This document shows, piece after piece, positions 134-10,060 of a stretch of 10,060 nt of DNA (positions are counted from its first letter, which is position 1; each line of letters opens with the position of its first letter). Under the pieces are notes generated by a model that was not told where the DNA came from, did no database searches, and saw nothing but the letters and a program-made list of their open reading frames with translations. The translations under genes were made by a program, and so were the position numbers. Origin of the DNA: an uncultured Lysobacterales bacterium (GTDB lineage: Bacteria; Pseudomonadota; Gammaproteobacteria; Xanthomonadales; SZUA-36). The stretch lies in NCBI GenBank assembly GCA_937995275.1, contig CALKKN010000249.1, positions 1 through 10,060 of the forward strand. Direction: 5' to 3'.

Positions 134-161
134 TTGACAAGCACTGGGATAAAGATATACG
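134..161 (+). promoter_or_regulatory. Possible sigma70-type promoter
   Basis: A perfect TTGACA hexamer at 134-139 is followed after 16 bases by TATACG at 156-161, a four-of-six match to the -10 consensus. It lies about 100 bases upstream of the small gene at 260, which would leave a leader containing the hairpin at 188-211. It is the best promoter-like match I found by eye upstream of the operon. Whether its transcript continues into the secretin operon is unknown. Confidence 0.3.
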
Positions 162-187
162 TTGTATGAGCAGAGTTGTAACTCTAC

Positions 188-211
188 TGGCTGCAGACTT
201 CCCTGCAGTCA
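188..211 (+). repeat. Inverted repeat in leader of the small gene
   Basis: The left arm TGGCTGCAG (188-196) and the right arm CTGCAGTCA (203-211) can pair over nine positions, with one G-U wobble and a six-base loop. No T-run follows, so it does not look like an intrinsic terminator. It would lie in the 5' leader of the gene at 260 if the promoter at 134-161 is real. Confidence 0.4.
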
Positions 212-259
212 AACCTCTTCTTCAAAGGAATGAGGGATGACTAATATAGGAGGGGAGGG

Positions 260-541
260 ATGACCAAGCAATTCGTAGCACTATTCATACTGGTCGTCAT
301 CGCGATTATCGCGGGTGTGACATTCACCAACATCGTTATCTACGAGTCGACTCAAATCTACGACCTCGATGTAATGTACGGTTCAATCTTCAGCTTTCTC
401 GACACGGTAGTGTTCAAGCTGGCCGAGCAGAATGGGGCCGTCGAGTTCTGGATCTCGGAGGCGACTCGCGAGGTGCAGATGGCGGAAGCCGAGCTGTTCT
501 ACTGGAATGAGTACATCTTTGAGATCATCAATGGGACATAA
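260..541 (+). CDS. Small acidic single-pass membrane protein, unknown function
   Basis: A 93-residue protein that I do not recognise. Residues about 6-27 form a strongly hydrophobic, isoleucine- and valine-rich membrane segment preceded by one lysine, so an inner-membrane anchor with the rest in the periplasm is likely. The remainder is acidic, rich in aromatic residues and probably helical. It lacks a prepilin peptidase motif (no glycine followed by a phenylalanine/threonine/leucine-rich stretch with Glu5), so it is not an obvious pilin. The ATG at 260 follows a strong purine-rich ribosome binding site (AGGAGGGGAGG, 248-258), which supports it being a real gene. Base composition is more AT-rich than the genes from 656 onward. 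It shares orientation with the secretin operon, 114 bases away, but membership in that operon is inference. Its design (N-terminal anchor, short helical tail) resembles that of the protein at 3649-4023. Confidence 0.7.
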   Translation: MTKQFVALFILVVIAIIAGVTFTNIVIYESTQIYDLDVMYGSIFSFLDTVVFKLAEQNGAVEFWISEATREVQMAEAELFYWNEYIFEIINGT

Positions 542-603
542 TTCCTAGGCTTGCAGCCTTGGGCCTCGGCCCGGCATCGCATCGCCTGAGCGATCGGATA
601 AAC

Positions 604-635
604 GTGCTCCCCTTCTCGCATGGGAGGGGGAGCAC
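604..635 (+). promoter_or_regulatory. Strong hairpin in the secretin leader
   Basis: GTGCTCCCC (604-612) is perfectly complementary to GGGGAGCAC (627-635). Pairing continues inward for five more positions (613-617 with 622-626) with two G-U wobbles, leaving a GCAT tetraloop at 618-621. The 14-bp stem captures a Shine-Dalgarno-like purine stretch and an in-frame ATG (620-622), 21 bases before the preferred secretin start. There is no T-run after it, so a role in mRNA processing, stability or translation control is more plausible than rho-independent termination. It might set secretin expression relative to the small upstream gene; that is inference. Confidence 0.55.
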
Positions 636-655
636 CATTCGGGGGGGCTGAAGTG

Positions 656-3409
656 ATGGCATACAAGCGCGCAGGCGTCGAGGCGGCGAGACGCCCGGAC
701 CGGGCCCTGCATGTTGCGGCGCTGTTCGGCGCGCTGCTTCTATACGCGAGCGCGGCGCTGTGCCAGGAGTCCCCATCCTCATCTCCATCCCCGGTCGGGG
801 ATCTGCGCGCCGATGTCGACCTCAACGACGTCAGCGCTGAAAGCGCGCTGCGCTTCCTGGCCGAGATTTACGATGTCTCCCTGACCACCGGGGAGTTGCC
901 TGACACCCGGGTGACGCTGCGCCTGAGAGGGCTGAACGCCGCCGAGGCGTTCGAGGTCGTAGCCCTTACCGCCGGGCTCGAAGTGGAACGTCACGGCTCG
1001 GTCCTGTTCGTCTCATCCCGGGCCCACGATGGCGCAGCCCGCCGGATCGTCTTCGGCCCTTTCCCGTGGACCTCGGCAACAAGTCACGAATGGCTGGCCG
1101 CGACCGGTGTCGAGTCGACGCCGGTCGGTGACGACGCGGTACTGCTCGAGGGCGCGGAGGCGTCGATCGCGGCGGTCGTGGAAGCCATCGAGGCTGCCCG
1201 GCCGGGTCTGGTCGTCGAGCAGGTCTTCCCTCTCGGCGCGGCTCCCGGCGAGGAAACCCTGCAGGCGGTGAGCACGCTTCTCGATCCCGAGCTCGAGTCC
1301 GCCAGCTACGACCCGACCGGTCACCTCCTGACCGTGTCGGCCCTGCCCGCCACCCTGGACCACGTCGAGCCGCTGCTTGACAGGCTGACGCAGTCGCCGG
1401 AGCAGTACGAGATCGAGGTCAAGGTGGTGGAGGTTTCTACCAATGCCCTCAGGCGCATCGGCGCCCAGGGTTTCTTCAGCCTGCAGGCGAACCTCGGCAA
1501 TTACCCAACCACCTTCCCGATGGAGAATCTGGATGACTCCTTCACCTACTTCCCTTCACCGAACGAACTGGCGGAGCTGAGCAACACCGCCAGCCGGCTC
1601 GGCTCCCAAGCGGTGCCCATACTGCCAGGGTCGCTGCAGGAATCAGGCTTCCGCTTTGGCAGCGTCGATGCACGCGGCGTTGGCCTGTTGATCGAATTCC
1701 TCGAGCAATCCGGTGACGCCCGGGTCATGGCCACGCCGAAGGTCACCTCGCTCGACAACCGGCAGGCTTTGATCAGCATGGTCACCACGCTGCGCATCCC
1801 CACCTACACGCAAAACGTGGCCTTCGCCACGACCGCCGTGAGCGGTATCGAGAAGATCGACGTCGGCACCACGCTCGAGGTGCGGCCGCGACGAACCGAG
1901 GGCGGCATTCTGCTGGACGTGACCCCGGAGGTCAGCGAACTCGTGCCGACGGTGGCCGCCTTCAATCCGAAAGGGCTGAACCAGGACTTTCCGACGGTCA
2001 TGCGTCGGCGTACCCAGACCGAGGTGATCCTGGATGAGGGCGAGACCCTGGTCATCGGTGGCCTGGTGATCGAGCGCGAGCGAGAGACGGTGGGCGAAAC
2101 GCCCGGTCTGTCGAAGATTCCCTGGCTGGGGCGGGCCTTTCAGCGCAAGGCCACGGAGTCACATAACTCGGAGTTGCTGGTTTTCGTGACGCCCCACGTC
2201 CTGCCACCGCCCGAGGAGCGGCAAGCCAGGGTGCGGGTCGATAACAGCTGGTTGCCGACCGAACTGGCGTGGCAAATCCAGGCGGCGCGGGGTTTGCTGA
2301 CCAGCCCGACACCGGACGCGCGGGTCGCCGGCACGCGCATGCTCGATCAGATCGACGATGAGCTCCTCGAGGCGGACCTGGACGTCGGCCAGGAAGTCGT
2401 TCGCCTCGGTGCCGACTCCGCTCCGGAAGTGCGGGCGGCGGCAGCCCTGTTCCTGCTTCACCGGCGGCCGGAGACCGCCATTGGCGAGATTCTCCGGTTC
2501 TCCGACGGCCGCTCAGTGGCGGTCACGGCGGTGTCGTCCGAGATCGCGCCGCACCAGCGCGCCGCCCTCGCCGAAATCCTGTCCCGATCGCCCGGAGGGG
2601 TCGACCTGCTGGTGGAACGGCTCGAGCAGTCGGCCGAGGCGCGGGATCCGACAGCGACCGGGAATCTGCTCGAGGCCCTCGGCGTGGCGGCACCCGAGAG
2701 CGCGGCGCGGCTGGCCGTGGACCTGGCGGCGCGAACCCCTGGCCTGCTCGCCCAGAGACAGCTCATCGACGCACTCAGCGGCGCACCCGGCGACCACAGC
2801 GAATTGGCGGCTTTGGCGCAGACCGGCAAATCCGTGGAAACGCGCGCCTACGCCGAGGCCGGATTAGTGCGGTCCATCGGGACGCCGGGGGCCTCGGCGA
2901 ACGCCGAACTGGGAGCCCGGATCCAACGGTTCCACCTCGGAGTGGCCCAACAGCCGCCCACCGAGGCCGGTCTCGGATGGAACGGCAAGCCGGCGGAGAT
3001 CGCCATCTCGGGGGATCCTCTCGGCGTCGATCTGACCCGGGTAGCCCTCGACCTTCTCGCCGCCAGGGCGCCGGACCTGCGCCAACTGGTCGGCTTCGCG
3101 CTGGCGCGGATCGACGTCGGCACCGCGGAAACATCCGTCGATCCGCAGGATCGCAGCGCGCGTCTCAAGACCGCCGGGGTCACCCCGGAACACCTGGCCC
3201 TGCGCATGGTCCGGCTCGCATCGATCGTCTTCGACTCCCGGGTGCTGGGCTTCCCGGCATACGGCGAGCGGGCGCTGGCCCACGCCGTCCGCCAGGAGAT
3301 TCGCGCCCTGGAACGCCTCACCGGAGCCTCCTGTTCCGCCGACTGCGCTGACGGAACGGTGCTGGAGGTTCTGGCCGGCGATGCGGCCCGGGAGGCAGGG
3401 GATGTCTGA
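656..3409 (+). CDS. Secretin (GspD/PilQ family) with long C-terminal helical extension
   Basis: Outer-membrane gate of a type IV filament machine, 917 residues. Residues 1 to about 35 are a Sec signal peptide (basic stretch, then hydrophobic core, cleavage near ASA33). About 49-121 resembles an STN/N0 domain, about 130-245 an N1-type secretin domain. About 250-518 is the secretin barrel domain: the VKVVEV strand, RVMATPKV near 356, QTEVILDEGETLVIGG near 453-468, GLSKIPWLGRAF near 484-495, and the closing ELLVFVTPHVL at about 506-516. Most secretins end soon after this point. Here about 400 further residues follow (from base 2210), helix-rich with HEAT-like stretches such as APEVRAAAALFLL, and with two cysteines near the end. 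I prefer ATG 656, since it begins a clean signal peptide and follows a G-rich stretch; the in-frame ATG at 620 lies inside a hairpin and adds a glycine-rich leader. No lipobox, so it may need a pilotin. Confidence 0.95.
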   Translation: MAYKRAGVEAARRPDRALHVAALFGALLLYASAALCQESPSSSPSPVGDLRADVDLNDVSAESALRFLAEIYDVSLTTGELPDTRVTLRLRGLNAAEAFEVVALTAGLEVERHGSVLFVSSRAHDGAARRIVFGPFPWTSATSHEWLAATGVESTPVGDDAVLLEGAEASIAAVVEAIEAARPGLVVEQVFPLGAAPGEETLQAVSTLLDPELESASYDPTGHLLTVSALPATLDHVEPLLDRLTQSPEQYEIEVKVVEVSTNALRRIGAQGFFSLQANLGNYPTTFPMENLDDSFTYFPSPNELAELSNTASRLGSQAVPILPGSLQESGFRFGSVDARGVGLLIEFLEQSGDARVMATPKVTSLDNRQALISMVTTLRIPTYTQNVAFATTAVSGIEKIDVGTTLEVRPRRTEGGILLDVTPEVSELVPTVAAFNPKGLNQDFPTVMRRRTQTEVILDEGETLVIGGLVIERERETVGETPGLSKIPWLGRAFQRKATESHNSELLVFVTPHVLPPPEERQARVRVDNSWLPTELAWQIQAARGLLTSPTPDARVAGTRMLDQIDDELLEADLDVGQEVVRLGADSAPEVRAAAALFLLHRRPETAIGEILRFSDGRSVAVTAVSSEIAPHQRAALAEILSRSPGGVDLLVERLEQSAEARDPTATGNLLEALGVAAPESAARLAVDLAARTPGLLAQRQLIDALSGAPGDHSELAALAQTGKSVETRAYAEAGLVRSIGTPGASANAELGARIQRFHLGVAQQPPTEAGLGWNGKPAEIAISGDPLGVDLTRVALDLLAARAPDLRQLVGFALARIDVGTAETSVDPQDRSARLKTAGVTPEHLALRMVRLASIVFDSRVLGFPAYGERALAHAVRQEIRALERLTGASCSADCADGTVLEVLAGDAAREAGDV

Positions 3410-3635
3410 CCGGCGTTTGCCAGGCGGGGCCGCGATCGGACTGCTGGTCTGCGTCCTGCTGCTCGGGTGCGCCAGCACGCCGCCGCCTACGGACCTCGAG
3501 TCGATTCAACCGGACGCCCCTGCGGAGTTGATGCACGAGGCGCCGGCTGCTCGCGACGCGCTCGAAGAGGGACTTCGCTGGATCGTGCGGGACGCGCCCG
3601 GGACCAACGCCACGCCGCCCCGGAGAAAGCCATGA
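3402..3635 (+). CDS. Small lipoprotein, candidate secretin pilotin
   Basis: A 77-residue lipoprotein. Two arginines (R4, R5) precede a hydrophobic stretch (about 9-22) that ends in the lipobox LLGC with lipidated Cys23. Residue +2 is Ala, not Asp, so sorting by Lol to the outer membrane is expected. The mature part is only about 55 residues, proline-rich at first and then probably helical, with many acidic residues. I see no named domain. ATG 3402 overlaps the end of the secretin gene by eight bases and follows a GGGAGG ribosome binding site within the secretin coding sequence; an in-frame ATG at 3381 would spoil the signal peptide's basic start less cleanly. Overlap with the secretin gene suggests matched expression, so a pilotin or secretin-accessory role is the natural guess. 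Known pilotins are mostly longer, so this is inference. Confidence 0.8.
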   Translation: MSDRRLPGGAAIGLLVCVLLLGCASTPPPTDLESIQPDAPAELMHEAPAARDALEEGLRWIVRDAPGTNATPPRRKP

Positions 3636-3636
3636 G

Positions 3637-3643
3637 AGGAGGT
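3637..3643 (+). promoter_or_regulatory. Consensus ribosome binding site AGGAGGT
   Basis: AGGAGGT lies five bases before the ATG at 3649. It is the closest match to the 16S anti-Shine-Dalgarno complement in the operon and fixes the start of the coiled-coil protein. It also suggests this protein is made at a higher rate than its neighbours. Confidence 0.85.
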
Positions 3644-3648
3644 GAGCG

Positions 3649-4023
3649 ATGAAAGTGGGGGCGGTGGCGGTGCCGGTGATTGTGGTCGCCCTGATCTTCG
3701 CCCTCGTATGGGGCGTCTCAATGGCGACGATGCAGGCCGGCGCCAGGGCGGTCGAAGGCGGCCTCGAGATGGTGCGCCTGCAGCTCAGGGTGGCGCGCAT
3801 GCAGGAAGAGGTCCTGCGCCTCTCCCGGCAAAGCCTGGAACTGCAGCTCGCAGAGCTCGATGCCCTCAAGGCGGGAGCCGCTTCCCGGAGCCCGGAGACG
3901 GTCGACCACGACGACCCGGGCGCAGGTACGGTTGAGCTCGATGGAAACCGCGAGACCGGATCCCAGAGTGAATGGCCGAGGGTTGAACCGCGGTCCGGAT
4001 CGACCACTACTGCGGACAAATAG
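3649..4023 (+). CDS. Membrane-anchored coiled-coil protein of unknown function
   Basis: A 124-residue protein that I cannot assign to a family. Residues about 5-27 are a membrane segment. About 33-77 is a long amphipathic helix with leucines and methionines at heptad-like spacing and frequent Arg, Glu and Gln, typical of a coiled coil. About 78-124 is polar, rich in Ser, Thr, Gly and Asp/Glu, and likely disordered. Topology is probably an inner-membrane anchor with the coiled coil in the periplasm, though the reverse cannot be excluded. It sits between the lipoprotein and ATPase genes, starts behind a near-perfect ribosome binding site, and its TAG stop overlaps the GTG start of the ATPase by one base. 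Context suggests a structural or assembly factor of the filament machine. It is not a pilin: no prepilin cleavage motif is present. Confidence 0.8.
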   Translation: MKVGAVAVPVIVVALIFALVWGVSMATMQAGARAVEGGLEMVRLQLRVARMQEEVLRLSRQSLELQLAELDALKAGAASRSPETVDHDDPGAGTVELDGNRETGSQSEWPRVEPRSGSTTTADK

Positions 4024-5486
4024 TGCAGCGCGCCGCCGAGAAAGCACCCCACGGACGCCGGCCCGAGCTGACCCTGCTCGATGGCTTGCGCGCGGTGCCG
4101 CCCGGTGTCGCGCGGCGCTACCAGGTGATCCCCTTGCGCTACGAGGGCGATCGGCTGGTGGTCGGGGCGATCGACCCTGACAACCTGGCGGCCCTCGATG
4201 CGCTCCACCGCCTGGGCCATGCCCGGATCGAGCTCGAGCCGCTGTCGCAGGAGCGCTACCGCGAGGTGATGCAGAGATGGTACGGCCCCGTCGGGGATAT
4301 CGCCGAGTTCGCGGCCCGACTCCCCCCACGGCTCGACCCTGGCGAACCATCGCTAGGTTTTGACGACCGGAGCGATGAATCGCCGGCAGCGCGCTTTCTC
4401 GCCCTCACCCTGACGGCCGCCCTCTCCGAGAACGCCACCGACGTCCACTTCGAACCCGATCGCATCTCGCCGAGAGTTCGCTTCCGGGTGGACGGAGTGC
4501 TGGTCGATCGGGTCGCCCCCCCACCCTGGCTTGCGGACCGTGTTATCGGCCGGATCAAGTCCATGGCGGGGCTTGCGCTCGGCGAATGCCTCTTCGCCCA
4601 GGACGGGCAACTCAGCTTCCCGACGCCGGCCGGGTCGGTCTCGATACGGGTGTCGATCGTGCCCAGCGACAGGGGCGAATGCGCGGTGCTGCGGCTTCTC
4701 ACGGTCGAGAACGAGGTCCCCACGCTGGAGCAGTTGGGAATGCCCGCCGCGGTCCGCCTACAGGTCGTCGAGGCGGCCGCCGGGCAGGAAGGCCTGATCG
4801 TCTTTGCCGGTCCCACCGGAAGCGGCAAGACGACCTCGCTGCACGCGTTGCTGGAAACGGTCGACGCGGACCGGCGGAACATCGTTTCGATCGAGGAACC
4901 GGTCGAGATCCACTCCCGCCGAGTCCGGCAGGTGCCGGTACGCCGCGAGACCGGCCTGGACTTCGCCAGTGCGCTGCGCTTCGTCCTGCGCCAGGATCCC
5001 GACGTCATCCTGGTCGGCGAGACCCGCGACACCGAGACTGCCGAGCTGGTGCTGCAGGCCTCGCTGGCGGGCCACCTGGTCCTTACCACCGTACACGCTT
5101 CCAACGCGCTCGGGGTCTTCGACCGCTTCGCGCAGCTGGGGGCGGACCGTCGGCTCCTGGCGCAGGTTACGCGACTCGCCGTATCGCAGCGGCTGATCCG
5201 GCTGATCTGCCCGCACTGCGCGGGTAAAGCGTGTTTCGCCTGCGACGGTACCGGCTTGAAAGGGCGTACTGGAGTCTTCGAGCTCGTCACCCTCGGGAAC
5301 GAGCTGGCCGAGCTGGTCCGCCAGGGTGCCCGGCCCGGCGAGCTGAGGGCAGCCGCGCGGGCCGCCGGCATGAGGACCCTTCAGGAAGCCGCAGCGGAAC
5401 TCGAGCGCAAGGGCGCGACCACGGCTGCCGAGATCGAGCGGGTGCTGGATCTCCAGGGCCGTTCCGGCAGCCCGGGAGGTGACTAG
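4023..5486 (+). CDS. Assembly ATPase of the GspE/PilB/MshE family
   Basis: Cytoplasmic hexameric ATPase that powers subunit addition to the filament; 487 residues. About 15-88 is an N-terminal T2SSE_N/MshEN-like domain. TDVHFEP (139-145) and the segment to about 230 form the N2 domain, and the C-terminal ATPase carries Walker A GPTGSGKTT (263-271), the Asp box IVSIEEPVEI (287-296), Walker B DPDVILVGETRD (325-336) and the His box LAGHLVLTTVHASNA (348-362). A tetracysteine zinc module, Cys396/399 and Cys404/407, is followed by the family motif GTGLKGRTGVFEL, which indicates an assembly ATPase and not a PilT-type retraction ATPase. The spacer between the two CxxC pairs is only four residues, shorter than usual in GspE. 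The usual basic AEKR-like segment before QDG is replaced by GECLFA. The start is GTG, overlapping the preceding TAG by one base with no clear ribosome binding site, so translation is probably coupled. Confidence 0.97.
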   Translation: MQRAAEKAPHGRRPELTLLDGLRAVPPGVARRYQVIPLRYEGDRLVVGAIDPDNLAALDALHRLGHARIELEPLSQERYREVMQRWYGPVGDIAEFAARLPPRLDPGEPSLGFDDRSDESPAARFLALTLTAALSENATDVHFEPDRISPRVRFRVDGVLVDRVAPPPWLADRVIGRIKSMAGLALGECLFAQDGQLSFPTPAGSVSIRVSIVPSDRGECAVLRLLTVENEVPTLEQLGMPAAVRLQVVEAAAGQEGLIVFAGPTGSGKTTSLHALLETVDADRRNIVSIEEPVEIHSRRVRQVPVRRETGLDFASALRFVLRQDPDVILVGETRDTETAELVLQASLAGHLVLTTVHASNALGVFDRFAQLGADRRLLAQVTRLAVSQRLIRLICPHCAGKACFACDGTGLKGRTGVFELVTLGNELAELVRQGARPGELRAAARAAGMRTLQEAAAELERKGATTAAEIERVLDLQGRSGSPGGD

Positions 5487-6844
5487 TGTCCGCCGTTCCA
5501 GGCAAGTCGGGGCGTGCCGCGACCGGTCGCCCTCGATGCACCGTCGGCCTCGATCTCCGCCACCCATCGCGCGCCGCGGCGGTTGCCGTGGACGCCAAGG
5601 GACAGTTGCGGGCCTGGGCGTCGATCCGCGGTGAAGGCGACCCCGTGGCGCTGACCAGGGCCGCCCTCGAGACACTCTCCGTACGTCCGAAGGAGGTGGG
5701 GGTTCTGGTCGGCTCCGAGCAGGTCCGGGTCGGGGTTTACGAGGGAGCGCGTGCGCCCGGCGAAGGGGAGATCACCGAGGCGCTGGTGGCCGAGGGCCAC
5801 GAACCGATCCTCACCCCGGCGATCGCCGCGTCATCGGCTGGATCCGGCGCTTGGCTGGTGGCGGGCTGCGACGAAGAGAAGGCGCGATCACTGGTCGATG
5901 GACTCGCCGAGCTGCTGGTGCTGGAACCCATGCTGGCAGTCGATCGGCTGCTGATCCTGGAGCACCTCCAACCCGGAACGGCGGCTATGGAGATCACCGA
6001 AGACGAACTCCTGATCGTCACCAGGCCGGCAGACGCGGCGCCCCTCACGCGGTCGCTCCCCACCGCGCGCAATGCGGAACAGACGCAGTCGGAGGCCCTG
6101 CGCACACTGGAGACGATCGGCGGTGCCCGGTCGATCCGGCTGCTGGGCGCGAGACGCGATGAACTGCGCCAGATGCTCGATCAGCAGGGGCTCGACCTGC
6201 ACCAGGAGGCGCTTCCGGCCTGTGACGGGGAGCCACTGCCCGCCGACCTCGAACTGGCCTGGCGCCTGGCCACCGCGGTTAACCCCGCGGAAATTTCCAG
6301 TCCTCAATTGGCGAAGCGCCGCCAGAGCATGCAGTGGGCGCGGAGGGCAGCTATCCTGGCCGTCGCGGTCATCGTTCTGAGCGCGATCCTCGTCGCTTTC
6401 GGCATCTCCGCGGCACTGAGTATCCGTGCAGCACAAAATGCCGACAGCGCCGGATTGGCGGCGACCCAAGCCCAGATCAGGCAACTCCGGGAAGCCGGGG
6501 CATTGGCTAAAGAGGTGGAACGGCTGCGCGCGCAGATGGGTCCGCGGGGCTTGCCCTGGCCGCAACTGGCCGGACCGATTGACGAGCTGGCGCGGCGGAG
6601 CCCTCCGAGCATCGGCTGGGAGCGGCTCGCGATCGTCGAGGGCGAGCTGGAGCTCGAGGTTTCCTCGGCCGGGGCGGTGCCGTTGGTCGACCTGGAACTG
6701 GCGCGCTCGACGCTCGAGGGCGGCCTCGGGTTCAGTAACACTTCCTGGGACGAACCGGTTCCGGACCCAACGGGACCCGGCTTTCGCCAGACCCTTCGCG
6801 CAACGTTGGCGACCCCGCCGGGCAGCGTGGGGGAGGCGCGATGA
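5486..6844 (+). CDS. GspL-like protein joining PilM-like and PilN-like parts
   Basis: Inner-membrane assembly-platform protein, 452 residues. About 18-270 looks like a cytoplasmic actin-fold domain of the PilM/cyto-GspL type: a first strand-turn VGLDLRHPS near 20-28 in the place of PilM's GIDIGSSS-like motif, and a second strand MEITEDELLIVTR near 168-180. Arg-rich residues 277-287 precede a membrane helix at about 288-313. About 318-352 is a likely coiled coil, and about 355-443 a periplasmic domain compatible with the PilN/GspL ferredoxin-like fold. In PilMNOP systems these two parts are separate genes; here they are one chain, as in GspL and MshI-type proteins. By family knowledge it couples the ATPase to the periplasmic alignment complex. 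GTG 5486 overlaps the ATPase TAG by one base and has GGAGGT five bases upstream. The two-domain reading rests on motif placement, not on an alignment. Confidence 0.8.
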   Translation: MSAVPGKSGRAATGRPRCTVGLDLRHPSRAAAVAVDAKGQLRAWASIRGEGDPVALTRAALETLSVRPKEVGVLVGSEQVRVGVYEGARAPGEGEITEALVAEGHEPILTPAIAASSAGSGAWLVAGCDEEKARSLVDGLAELLVLEPMLAVDRLLILEHLQPGTAAMEITEDELLIVTRPADAAPLTRSLPTARNAEQTQSEALRTLETIGGARSIRLLGARRDELRQMLDQQGLDLHQEALPACDGEPLPADLELAWRLATAVNPAEISSPQLAKRRQSMQWARRAAILAVAVIVLSAILVAFGISAALSIRAAQNADSAGLAATQAQIRQLREAGALAKEVERLRAQMGPRGLPWPQLAGPIDELARRSPPSIGWERLAIVEGELELEVSSAGAVPLVDLELARSTLEGGLGFSNTSWDEPVPDPTGPGFRQTLRATLATPPGSVGEAR

Positions 6845-7383
6845 AAACCGCCTGGACGCGAACCTCCATTCTCCTGGCCGGCGCACTGGTGGCCCTGGTG
6901 GCGGCAATGTGGATTCTGCGCATGGTGGCGGTGCAGGCCGCCGTTCCGCGCATGCTCCAGGCCGCCCAGCAGACATTTCAGGAGCGCGGCGGGGCGCAGG
7001 GCCTGGCCGATCGGCAGCGGATGCTGACCGAGATTCACGCCGGTCTGGAACGTCAGCGCGCGGCGATGAGCTCGGATGCAGAGCTTTTCAATCGTCGGCT
7101 TGGAGAGGTGTTCGATGAGCTGGGGCTCGTCGTGACGACCTCGAGCGGGTGGCGCACGCTGCCCGGCTTTGCGAATGAGCGCGCAGCGGGTTTCGAGCGG
7201 GCACTTACCGGCTCGGGGGCGTTCGGAGATTTGCTCGACGCCATCGGGACGATCGAGAGTTGGCCCGACCAGGCTCGGGTGAGGTTCCTGCAGGTCGTCC
7301 CGGAGGGGCCCGGGTCCGTATCCTTCAGTCTGGATATCGCCGTGGTACGGCTGGCGCCATCCGCCGGAGAGGGAGAGAGCTAG
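6841..7383 (+). CDS. PilO/GspM-like inner-membrane protein
   Basis: A 180-residue bitopic protein. Residues about 8-31 are the membrane segment, about 35-90 are helical and probably coiled coil, and about 92-172 are a periplasmic domain with the helix-strand mix expected of the PilO/GspM ferredoxin-like fold, including SGSGAFGDLLDAIGTIE-like sequence near 122-138 that resembles the 'G.Y..L..F...L' part of PilO proteins. Sequence identity to named families is low to the eye. Assignment rests mainly on size, topology and position after the PilN/GspL-like gene and before the PilP/GspC-like gene, the standard N-O-P order. ATG 6841 overlaps the preceding stop as ATGA (four bases). Confidence 0.7.
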   Translation: MKTAWTRTSILLAGALVALVAAMWILRMVAVQAAVPRMLQAAQQTFQERGGAQGLADRQRMLTEIHAGLERQRAAMSSDAELFNRRLGEVFDELGLVVTTSSGWRTLPGFANERAAGFERALTGSGAFGDLLDAIGTIESWPDQARVRFLQVVPEGPGSVSFSLDIAVVRLAPSAGEGES

Positions 7384-7384
7384 C

Positions 7385-8173
7385 GTGCTGAGCAAGAGGC
7401 TTCTGTTCGTCGTCGCGGGTGTGGTGATTGCCGGACTGGCGGTGTTGCTGGTCCTCCGGGGCCTGAACGCGCAGCGCCCGGAGCCCGCCGGAGCGAGCGA
7501 CGCGATCGCGGAATCCACCGGCGATCCGACGCCCGAGGGCGGCAGGGCGAGCGGGGAAAAATCGCGACGGTGGCAGGAGTTCACCGGCGGTGCGGCGCGG
7601 AGCTCCGATGAGGTGACGACGGCCCTGCGGCCGATCGAGCGCCAGGCCCAGGCTGCCGGGAAGCCGTTCGATCAAGCCTACGCCCGAACACAGTTGGGCC
7701 GCCTCGGGTTCCGTCTCGAAGGCATTGGTCGCGGCGAGGAGCCGTTGGCCCTCATCTCGGGACGGGTGGTGAGAATCGGCGACCGCATCGAAGGCTACCG
7801 CGTCGAGTCGATCGACCGCTCCGGTGTCCTGCTGATCGGCCCAACCGGCATGCGCCTCGATCTGGCGCTGCAGCAGCGATCGGCCGCGCGGGGGAACCTG
7901 TCGACGGGGAGCGACGACTACGCCGGCGGTGGCGCCGGCGGGCAGCAGAGCAGCGTGTGGCGGAGCACGGACGGGCTGCGGGCTCGGCCCTACTTTCCCG
8001 ACGGCAGGCCCGACATCAGGCCCACCGACCCGAACCTCAAGGTCAGGGAAAGATTGAAGAACGAAGACCTGCCCTGGGATCGAAACACGCCACCGTGGCC
8101 TCAAGGCCCGTTTCCCCAACCGCCAGCGGCGTACATAGAGCGTGAGCGCGAACAGCAGAAGAGGCAACGGTAA
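7385..8173 (+). CDS. GspB/GspC/PilP-like periplasmic alignment protein with proline-rich tail
   Basis: A 262-residue protein with a membrane anchor at about 5-26 and a disordered linker (27-75). The homology-region domain lies at about 106-162: LEGIGRGEEPLALISGRVV (111-129), then IGDRIEGYRVESID (131-144), then a strand-rich end near 146-160. This layout of 'no x x I x ... I xGxxVxxGDxIxGYxVxxI' is typical of GspB, GspC and PilP, which contact the N-terminal domains of the secretin. Unlike classical PilP it is not a lipoprotein; a transmembrane anchor is more GspC-like. The last 100 residues form a Gly/Ser stretch followed by a proline-, arginine- and tryptophan-rich tail (about 196-253), whose role I cannot infer. 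GTG 7385 starts one base after the preceding stop, behind a GGAGA-type site; the hydrophobic segment begins right after it. Confidence 0.85.
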   Translation: MLSKRLLFVVAGVVIAGLAVLLVLRGLNAQRPEPAGASDAIAESTGDPTPEGGRASGEKSRRWQEFTGGAARSSDEVTTALRPIERQAQAAGKPFDQAYARTQLGRLGFRLEGIGRGEEPLALISGRVVRIGDRIEGYRVESIDRSGVLLIGPTGMRLDLALQQRSAARGNLSTGSDDYAGGGAGGQQSSVWRSTDGLRARPYFPDGRPDIRPTDPNLKVRERLKNEDLPWDRNTPPWPQGPFPQPPAAYIEREREQQKRQR

Positions 8174-9291
8174 TGAGCGGTGATGGCCGGCGCCTCGGCC
8201 GGGTCCTCCCGGAGGAGGCGATCAGTGCCCTGGCCGACCTCGTGGCCGCCGGCTACGGCATTTCCGCCGCGCTGGAGGTCCTGCCCCGGCGGGCGTTGAA
8301 ACCCGCTGTCGTCCAGCGACTGGAGAGCGAGGTCGCAGAGCTCCAGGCGGGCGGGGCGCTGGATCTGGCACTCGAGCGTCTCGGTCTCGAGATCACGCCC
8401 GCCGTGCTCCGCGGCTCGCAATCGCACTCTGCCGATATCGAGGCTGCCCTGCGCGCCGACGTCGAGGCCCGGACGGCGGCGGCGGCGGCGCTGCGCAAGA
8501 CGCGATCCGGGGTCCAGCTGTTCGGGATCATCGTCGGCGGCATGGCCCTGTTCACCTTCATCCTGGCCTTCTTTTTGGTGCCGGGCATGATCAAGGGCGT
8601 TGCCGGTTTGGCCCAGGGATCGGAACTACCCCCGTCGCTGGTGCGATTCGAGCAGTTCCGTGACACCTGGCTGGCGCTCGGCGCCGGCTTCCTGTTGGCC
8701 ATGACGGCGCCCTTCGTCATCTATTCGGGCATTGTCGGCCGGTCCGAGTGGAGGGCCTTCCTGCAAGACTTCCGCCTGTACCTGCCGTTTCTCCGGCGGC
8801 ATGCGATCGCCGCGTCCAGCGCCCGGCTGCTGGAGGCAGTGGCGCACGAGGAGGCGGCGGGAATCCCCACCAACCTGACGCTCCGGCGGGTCCAGAGAAG
8901 GGAGCCGGTGCCCAGGCTGCGGAACGATTTGGGACTGGCCGCGACCCGGCTTGAAGCCGGCGACTCCTGGGAAGCCTGTCTGCGCGGGACGTTGTTCGAC
9001 ACGCCGGTGCTCGCCGACTTGGCCAGCCTGGCAAGCCGCGGAGCGCGACCGACCCAGGGCTGGCGCTGGGCCGCCGCCCGCAATCGGGATGAGGCGGTAA
9101 AGTCGCTGCGCCGCGCCATCGTGGCGGCGGCGGTGGTAGTGTTCGTACCGTCGTTTCTCTACATTCTTGTGTTGATGAACGCCGCGGCGGTCACCTCGTC
9201 GGTGGCGCAGTTCGAAGCCCTCAGGCAGCAAGTGGAACTGTTGACCGACGAGGTCGAGGAAATGTTCCAGAACGTAAGCCCGCAGCGGTGA
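8173..9291 (+). CDS. GspF/PilC-like inner-membrane platform protein, short form
   Basis: Polytopic inner-membrane protein expected to sit on the ATPase hexamer and organise subunit extraction; 372 residues. It has two GspF-type helical domains: about 13-110, and about 203-312 (YLPFLRRHAIAASSARLLEAV onward, written here from 203 to 223). Membrane helices lie at about 115-138, 166-187 and 314-338, which matches the family topology. It lacks the roughly 60-70-residue N-terminal segment that precedes the first domain in GspF and PilC. Its first-domain signature ALADLVAAGYGISAALEVL diverges from the usual RQLATLLxAGLPL pattern. The conserved LP near the second membrane helix is kept (152-153). The final 30 residues, after the third membrane helix, form an acidic helix. 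ATG 8173 overlaps the preceding TAA by one base. Confidence 0.9.
   Translation: MSGDGRRLGRVLPEEAISALADLVAAGYGISAALEVLPRRALKPAVVQRLESEVAELQAGGALDLALERLGLEITPAVLRGSQSHSADIEAALRADVEARTAAAAALRKTRSGVQLFGIIVGGMALFTFILAFFLVPGMIKGVAGLAQGSELPPSLVRFEQFRDTWLALGAGFLLAMTAPFVIYSGIVGRSEWRAFLQDFRLYLPFLRRHAIAASSARLLEAVAHEEAAGIPTNLTLRRVQRREPVPRLRNDLGLAATRLEAGDSWEACLRGTLFDTPVLADLASLASRGARPTQGWRWAAARNRDEAVKSLRRAIVAAAVVVFVPSFLYILVLMNAAAVTSSVAQFEALRQQVELLTDEVEEMFQNVSPQR
8474..8491 (+). repeat. Short GGC/GCG trinucleotide tract
   Basis: About six tandem GCG-type triplets encode an alanine run (residues about 102-106) between the first helical domain and first membrane segment of the GspF-like protein. Slippage would change the length by whole codons without shifting the frame. 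Confidence 0.6.
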
Positions 9292-9699: not shown

Positions 9700-10060
9700 G
9701 CCGACCCTGGCCAGAGAGTTGGTGCTCGATGCCATCCTGATGGCCGTGTGGCGACGCCGACCGAAGCAGGGGGTGACGATCCATTCCGACCAGGGTACGT
9801 AAAACGGCGGCGACGGCTGGCAGCGCTTCTGCCGTGATCTCAATCTCGAACCCAGCATGAGCCGGCGCGGCAACTGCTGGGACAATGCGCTCGTCGAGTC
9901 GTTCTTTAGCAGTTTAAAGAAAGAACGCATCAAGAAACGCATCTATCAAACCCGCGAACTGGCGCGCGCCGATGTGTTTGACTACATCGAAGTGTTTTAC
10001 AATCGACAGCGCCGCTACAGCCATCTGAGCAGTGTCAGCCCGGAGGCCGTCGAACAGGCC
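9695..10060 (+). pseudogene. Truncated IS3-family DDE transposase (OrfB) with internal stop, runs off right edge
   Basis: The frame from 9695 reads as the C-terminal half of an IS3-family integrase-type (rve) transposase: MKPTLARELVLDAILMAVWR, then PKQGVTIHSDQG, SMSRRGNCWDNALVESFF, and DVFDYIEVFYNRQRR with a following SHLSSVSPEA. The second catalytic Asp (HSD, codon 9788-9790) and the catalytic Glu (VES, codon 9896-9898) are present, with the family's 35-residue spacing. The N-terminal part with the first Asp is missing, replaced by the IS256-type fragment. A TAA at 9800-9802 lies where family members usually have Gln (GSQY or GTQY), so one C-to-T change from CAA would explain it. The frame stays open to the window edge. 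Non-functional as read. Confidence 0.9.

Follow-up and report, generated by a model that had tools for sequence, protein, structure and literature searches.

The window analysed here, the whole stretch of 10,060 nucleotides at positions 1 to 10,060 of contig CALKKN010000249.1 (C249 below), comes from the assembly GCA_937995275.1 of an uncultured Lysobacterales bacterium. It carries eight genes on one strand, from 656 to 9291 (Table 1), of which the first encodes a secretin with a long C-terminal extension and the second a small lipoprotein. The reading frame of the secretin is open from 620 to 3409; we set the start at the ATG at 656, since close relatives begin at the equivalent position. In a Pfam scan the protein reached 132.4 bits with PF00263 (cut-off 27.5), which places it in the secretin superfamily, and the same model was over its cut-off in 38 of the 38 members of the family alignment described below. 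It scored under the curated cut-offs of the type II secretion system (T2SS) GspD equivalog TIGR02517 (149.7 bits; cut-off 351.35) and of the type IVa pilus model PilQ TIGR02515 (135.7 bits; cut-off 284.35). That the secretin might be a lipoprotein piloting itself was rejected, since no lipobox pattern occurs in its first 45 residues; a crude lipobox pattern in two relatives (P0006 and P0035) lies upstream of the hydrophobic stretch and was taken as chance.

An earlier note on this DNA, made from the letters alone, had described about 400 residues following the barrel in frame, a layout unlike that of standard secretins. Our measurements bear this out. The Secretin domain stops at residue 516 of 917 (Pfam), leaving 401 residues in the same frame (counted from the ATG at 656, as the note also did), whereas the post-barrel tails of 18 comparison secretins from related genomes, measured in the same way, are 29 to 75 amino acids (aa) long, within the 100 or so residues that the note had given as typical. 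The extension matched no family in Pfam or NCBIfam, nor did anything outside the secretin part in the 38 aligned members, and PDB sequences gave no match to the extension up to an E value of 1.

The note had also proposed looking for other secretins with this extension. Searches first with the window protein's extension and afterwards with the extension from a shorter relative recovered 39 distinct database proteins, the window's own included, and every one has a Secretin domain. Most entries carry no taxon name; those named by their source are five from Thermoanaerobaculia and one from Acidobacteriota. The secretin family in which the window protein falls is acidobacterial as far as its members are named. 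The family alignment comprises 38 proteins, with P0040 omitted, whose C-terminus departs from the rest; P0034, which ends early, was excluded from the fusion count given below, yet carries the label "sep" in the tree. A second genome (G008), from a second genus, keeps the same secretin frame at 84% identity. A frame kept both in this genome and in 38 further database proteins speaks against a frameshift from sequencing with a separate gene near 2210, a doubt raised in the note, and rules out a chance open reading frame (ORF). Five other genomes of the order gave short, weak matches to the extension (E values of 2.6e-4 to 8.8e-4), as did contig C47 of the window's own genome (4.3e-5, with two stops); these were not counted as relatives. 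Among viral sequences one contig matched, at 27% identity and in the barrel only; no plasmid record reached 80% coverage of the query, the ten matches listed lying at 37–43%.

Ratios of nonsynonymous to synonymous substitution rates (dN/dS) between the window and G008, given as Nei–Gojobori (NG86) point estimates, were 0.24 for the barrel and 0.52 for the whole extension. Within the extension the estimates were 0.83 for the first part, 0.72 for the middle and 0.28 for the C-terminal domain.

AlphaFold2 modelled the extension as two confident domains, a solenoid at residues ~530–741 and an alpha/beta domain at ~775–913. In the model, residues ~530–741 form a HEAT-like helical solenoid, the first part of which (123–129 residues) is retained in 38 of the 38 aligned members; no HEAT family model was among the Pfam matches of these members at an E value of 1. 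The helix-rich, HEAT-like stretches reported in the note correspond to this solenoid, with modelled helices at residues 590–603 and 727–741. The last third is a separate alpha/beta domain in the model, and a reading of the entire extension as HEAT repeats was rejected. Structural matches of the C-terminal domain model are dominated by zinc-metallopeptidase (zincin) folds, and its fold neighbours also include metal-dependent enzymes that are not peptidases, such as a HExxH oxygenase. The domain is present in every aligned member that reaches this region, and none of the 38 aligned members has a HExxH there (one member stops before this part). Because the predicted fold is zincin-like and the motif is missing from the aligned members, the domain is likely a pseudo-peptidase. 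The terminal pair of cysteines pointed out earlier is present (Cys 893 and Cys 897); it is kept in P0002–P0007, more distant members having one or no Cys at that place, and is a local feature.

The note had suggested modelling the secretin tail together with the lipoprotein, the start codon (ATG) of which overlaps the secretin stop. Read from the sequence, it has the property expected of a pilotin of being a small lipoprotein encoded together with a secretin; it had no Pfam or NCBIfam match, known pilotin families included. As a free protein it was found in six cases, the window's included, all of them close relatives (the search was limited to shared 5-residue words). Its conserved portion consists of a single helix with a short tail after it, and this helix stands at the C-terminus of the secretin itself in 24 of the 37 relatives with an intact C-terminus (window included). 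For this comparison the mature lipoprotein was aligned locally to each tail, with 500 shuffled tails as control: in the 24 fused tails the score was reached by none of the 500 shuffles, and in the other 13 by 38 to 476 of them. In BLASTP the lipoprotein matched the secretins P0009 (5e-10) and P0028 (5e-7); it did not match the window's own secretin. The fusion of this helix to 24 of the 37 secretins makes the lipoprotein a plausible partner of the secretin extension.

In P0009, a C-terminal end typical of the unfused members is followed by a linker and then by the helix, the layout that would result if adjacent genes had fused and the lipobox had been left out. The columns of residues 646–768 retain 4–38 residues in all 24 fused members, versus 86–150 in the 13 members without the fusion. 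The fused state is confined to one region of the tree and requires three changes, one of them from the truncated P0034, labelled separate; one other row within this region, P0008, is unfused, and its placement is weakly supported. Since the fused members are related, we infer one or a few fusion events rather than 24. As an observation in its own right, an N-terminal periplasmic domain (residues 124–185) is mostly absent in several secretins of the fused clade (P0010–P0013, P0015, P0016 and P0029–P0032).

Downstream of the lipoprotein, the operon encodes an assembly ATPase (PF00437) and a GspF-type platform protein (PF00482), both over the cut-off, among proteins assigned mainly from their order and size (Table 1). 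The Pfam and NCBIfam scan of nine window proteins reported no N-methylation family of pilins or pseudopilins. N_methyl matches were found on other contigs of the same genome and of G008, and both genomes carry further PilB/PilT-type ATPases. The G008 genome, 97% complete, gave no match to the prepilin peptidase family PF01478, despite nine prepilin N-methylation matches. Upstream of the secretin lies an ORF of 93 aa that, among 39 genomes of the taxonomic family, occurs in the window's genome and G008, with a weak match in a third; its dS between the two genomes is 0.84, at least three times that of the operon genes (0.10–0.28).

Table 1. Features of the window, by position.
Feature	Position	Strand	Remarks
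Membrane-anchored ORF, 93 aa	260..541	+	Upstream of the secretin; beside the operon in G008 too; operon membership unsure
Secretin gene, 917 aa	656..3409	+	N-terminal domains, barrel up to residue 516, extension up to residue 917
Secretin (barrel) domain PF00263	1697..2203	+	Pfam match, 137 bits in the genome search
Extension part A, residues 530–645	2243..2590	+	First HEAT-like solenoid helices (predicted); predicted local distance difference test (pLDDT) mostly above 90
Extension middle, residues 646–741	2591..2878	+	Further predicted solenoid helices; kept in unfused members, mostly lost in the fused clade
C-terminal alpha/beta domain, residues 775–917	2978..3406	+	Predicted zincin-like fold, no HExxH
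Cys 893 and Cys 897	3332..3346	+	Conserved only in close relatives
Lipoprotein, 77 aa	3402..3635	+	Lipobox LLGC; mature part ~55 aa; ATG overlaps secretin stop
Conserved amphipathic lipoprotein helix	3540..3605	+	The piece fused to secretins in relatives
Small protein X	3649..4023	+	Membrane-anchored; one hydrophobic segment at the N-terminus, probable coiled coil; no family matched
GspE/PilB-type assembly ATPase with MshEN domain	4023..5486	+	PF00437, 309.6 bits; PF05157, 39.8 bits
452-aa protein, putatively GspL/PilM-PilN-like	5486..6844	+	Read from its order, its size and a single hydrophobic segment; Pfam and NCBIfam gave nothing significant
180-aa protein, putatively GspM/PilO-like	6841..7383	+	From order and size; no significant match
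262-aa protein, putatively GspC/PilP-like	7385..8173	+	PF23893 weak (E 0.0026), below cut-off
GspF/PilC-type inner-membrane protein	8173..9291	+	PF00482, 29.4 bits, over cut-off

The assembly that holds the window (G000) amounts to 2.59 Mb in 379 contigs, is 78% complete and has 2.65% contamination. Like this one, the genome G008 is gammaproteobacterial. In G008 the operon lies inside a 43-kb contig, and positions 158–9274 of the window are common to both genomes at 87–88% nucleotide identity. Strong matches to the extension were confined to these two among 398 genomes of the order, and to the window's own genome in samples from the phylum (398 genomes) and the class (369 genomes), which overlap; the 452-aa operon protein had a strong match only in the same two among the 39 genomes of the taxonomic family. 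A gene on the flank in G008 matches all 39 of these, with only a distant relative listed in G003, G007, G010 and G021. The G+C content (GC) is 63–72% for the operon in the window versus 46–58% in the flanks on the G008 contig, and such a GC-rich island beside flanks of much lower GC suggests horizontal acquisition. In the tree, the group of the window secretin adjoins P0035–P0038, of which P0038 is named Acidobacteriota, and the operon was likely acquired from Acidobacteriota. The presence of the same operon in G008 argues against contamination of the window's own bin. At 9857–10060 a fragment of a transposase integrase core (rve_2 and rve_3 over cut-off) reads off the end of the contig, and probably explains why the contig ends there.

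To our knowledge, pilotins have various folds and one logic, in which a folded lipoprotein grips a short peptide of the secretin. The account of the Tad system (PMC10499894) describes such an arrangement for RcpA and TadD, where the folded lipoprotein grips a short C-terminal peptide of the secretin. It shares with our locus the combination of a secretin, a helical-repeat protein and a lipid anchor in the outer membrane, with a short peptide lying in a solenoid groove and required for assembly in the described case. There, however, the solenoid is the lipoprotein TadD and RcpA provides its last four residues, whereas in the window the predicted solenoid is in the secretin and the lipoprotein would provide the helix; moreover, the window tail is HEAT-like rather than built of tetratricopeptide repeats (TPR), and has a zincin-like domain in addition. 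In the T2SS pairs PulD–PulS and GspD–AspS, PMC3542185 describes folded pilotins and a natively disordered S-domain of ~60 residues. A C-terminal region after the barrel, a small outer-membrane lipoprotein and a helix contact of ~18 residues are alike in this description; the window tail, by contrast, has 401 residues and is folded in the model, and the lipoprotein is short and apparently unfolded beyond its helix. The model of the C-terminal domain resembles in fold the mod_HExxH and other zincin-fold enzymes (the ChlB HExxH domain, Wss1), but it lacks HExxH, is fused to a secretin and has no profile similarity to seven mod_HExxH sequences. A zincin has been tied to a type II secretion apparatus before: Gcp16, a putative gluzincin co-occurring with the mitochondrial T2SS, which PMC8134430 presents as a separate membrane protein with a conserved HEXXH, and which we liken to our domain by description only.

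Our tentative explanation, which takes the system and the tail together, is that the operon encodes a minimal type II secretion or type IV filament-like system with the secretin as its outer-membrane component, and that the tail of this secretin subfamily, a HEAT-like solenoid followed by a zincin fold devoid of HExxH, acts as a receptor for the lipoprotein helix. Computation itself showed the domain pair, the absence of the motif and the repeated fusion in cis of the helix to the secretin C-terminus. By analogy with the C-termini of other secretins, the extension would encircle the barrel on the periplasmic side, close to the outer membrane. There it would be a built-in, non-catalytic peptide-binding receptor that captures the short lipoprotein helix, as the fusion suggests, with the helix docking either on the solenoid or in what was once a peptidase cleft; the captured lipoprotein may then tether or assemble the ring at the outer membrane. 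On this, the simplest reading, the usual roles would be reversed, with the folded receptor on the secretin and the peptide on the lipoprotein, and in the fused clade the helix would be provided in cis, with the middle of the solenoid reduced. Somewhat more doubtful is the wider proposal of a new, reversed kind of secretin–pilotin pair, with a solenoid and a retired metallopeptidase on the secretin and a lipoprotein reduced to a lipid, a leash and one helix, later fused in one acidobacterial clade in which the lipoprotein was no longer needed.

Several results weigh against this explanation. The fusions cluster in one clade, which makes them equivalent to roughly one or two events. Among the 22 fused secretins with an N-terminus, none carries a lipobox in its first 45 residues, so the helix can function without lipid, which is more in keeping with a structural partner than with a protein that acts only as a membrane pilot. 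The dN/dS of the lipoprotein is 1.02 (77 codons, window versus G008), and that of the first and middle parts of the extension 0.83 and 0.72; all of these indicate little constraint between the two genomes. The barrel itself was poorly modelled by AlphaFold2. A Foldseek comparison of the C-terminal domain with the PDB gave no match at an E value of 0.001 or below (best, 0.063), and its best structural alignments show a high root-mean-square deviation. Profile comparison (hhalign) with the seven mod_HExxH sequences gave 0.3%, that is, no support, in a set where two were under the family cut-off and three had no HExxH in the translated stretch; membership in mod_HExxH (TIGR04267), also absent from the NCBIfam matches of the 38 members, was rejected.

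Secretins are anchored from outside by GspA/GspB or TsaP, and the extension might similarly be a scaffold or collar anchoring the ring to peptidoglycan or to an inner-membrane partner, the lipoprotein helix being one collar part of several. Solenoids typically serve as protein-binding scaffolds, the fused clade does without the lipid and the lipoprotein matches no pilotin family, all of which would suit such a collar; but family scans of the window secretin and the 38 aligned members found no peptidoglycan-binding family (LysM, AMIN, SPOR or similar), and we consider this alternative rather improbable. Less probable again is a role in cargo selection or gating instead of assembly, with the zincin-like domain keeping its cleft for the recognition of substrates or signal peptides. 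The constraint on this domain, the tightest within the extension (dN/dS 0.28), its peptidase-like fold and its presence in every aligned member reaching it are consistent with a working cleft. However, no cargo gene was recognised, and in established secretin structures the C-terminus is outside the lumen, where it would be expected to lie away from cargo.

It is very unlikely that the domain is a working metalloenzyme whose motif departs from the usual: the fold neighbours do include metal-dependent enzymes other than peptidases, but HExxH is found in 0 of 38 aligned members and the NCBIfam enzyme models have no match in them. Least credible is an artefact, whether a frameshift, wrongly joined genes or a contaminant contig. 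It could draw on the fragmented, incomplete assembly and on the difference in GC between window and flanks; it is refuted as to the reading frame by the 38 other proteins, and is opposed by the confident AlphaFold2 fold of the extension and by the operon in the 43-kb contig of G008, on which the gene at the flank is one with close relatives across most of the taxonomic family.

The secretin itself is of a known type, and it is the architecture of its tail that appears to be new; a search of titles and abstracts in open-licence PMC articles found no description of such a secretin tail. An inactive peptidase fold inside an outer-membrane pore protein would represent an uncommon way of putting such a fold to new use. 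If the reversed pairing of secretin and lipoprotein is true, lipid anchor and receptor can be swapped between the partners, and the fused and unfused relatives provide a natural experiment on what the lipid is needed for.
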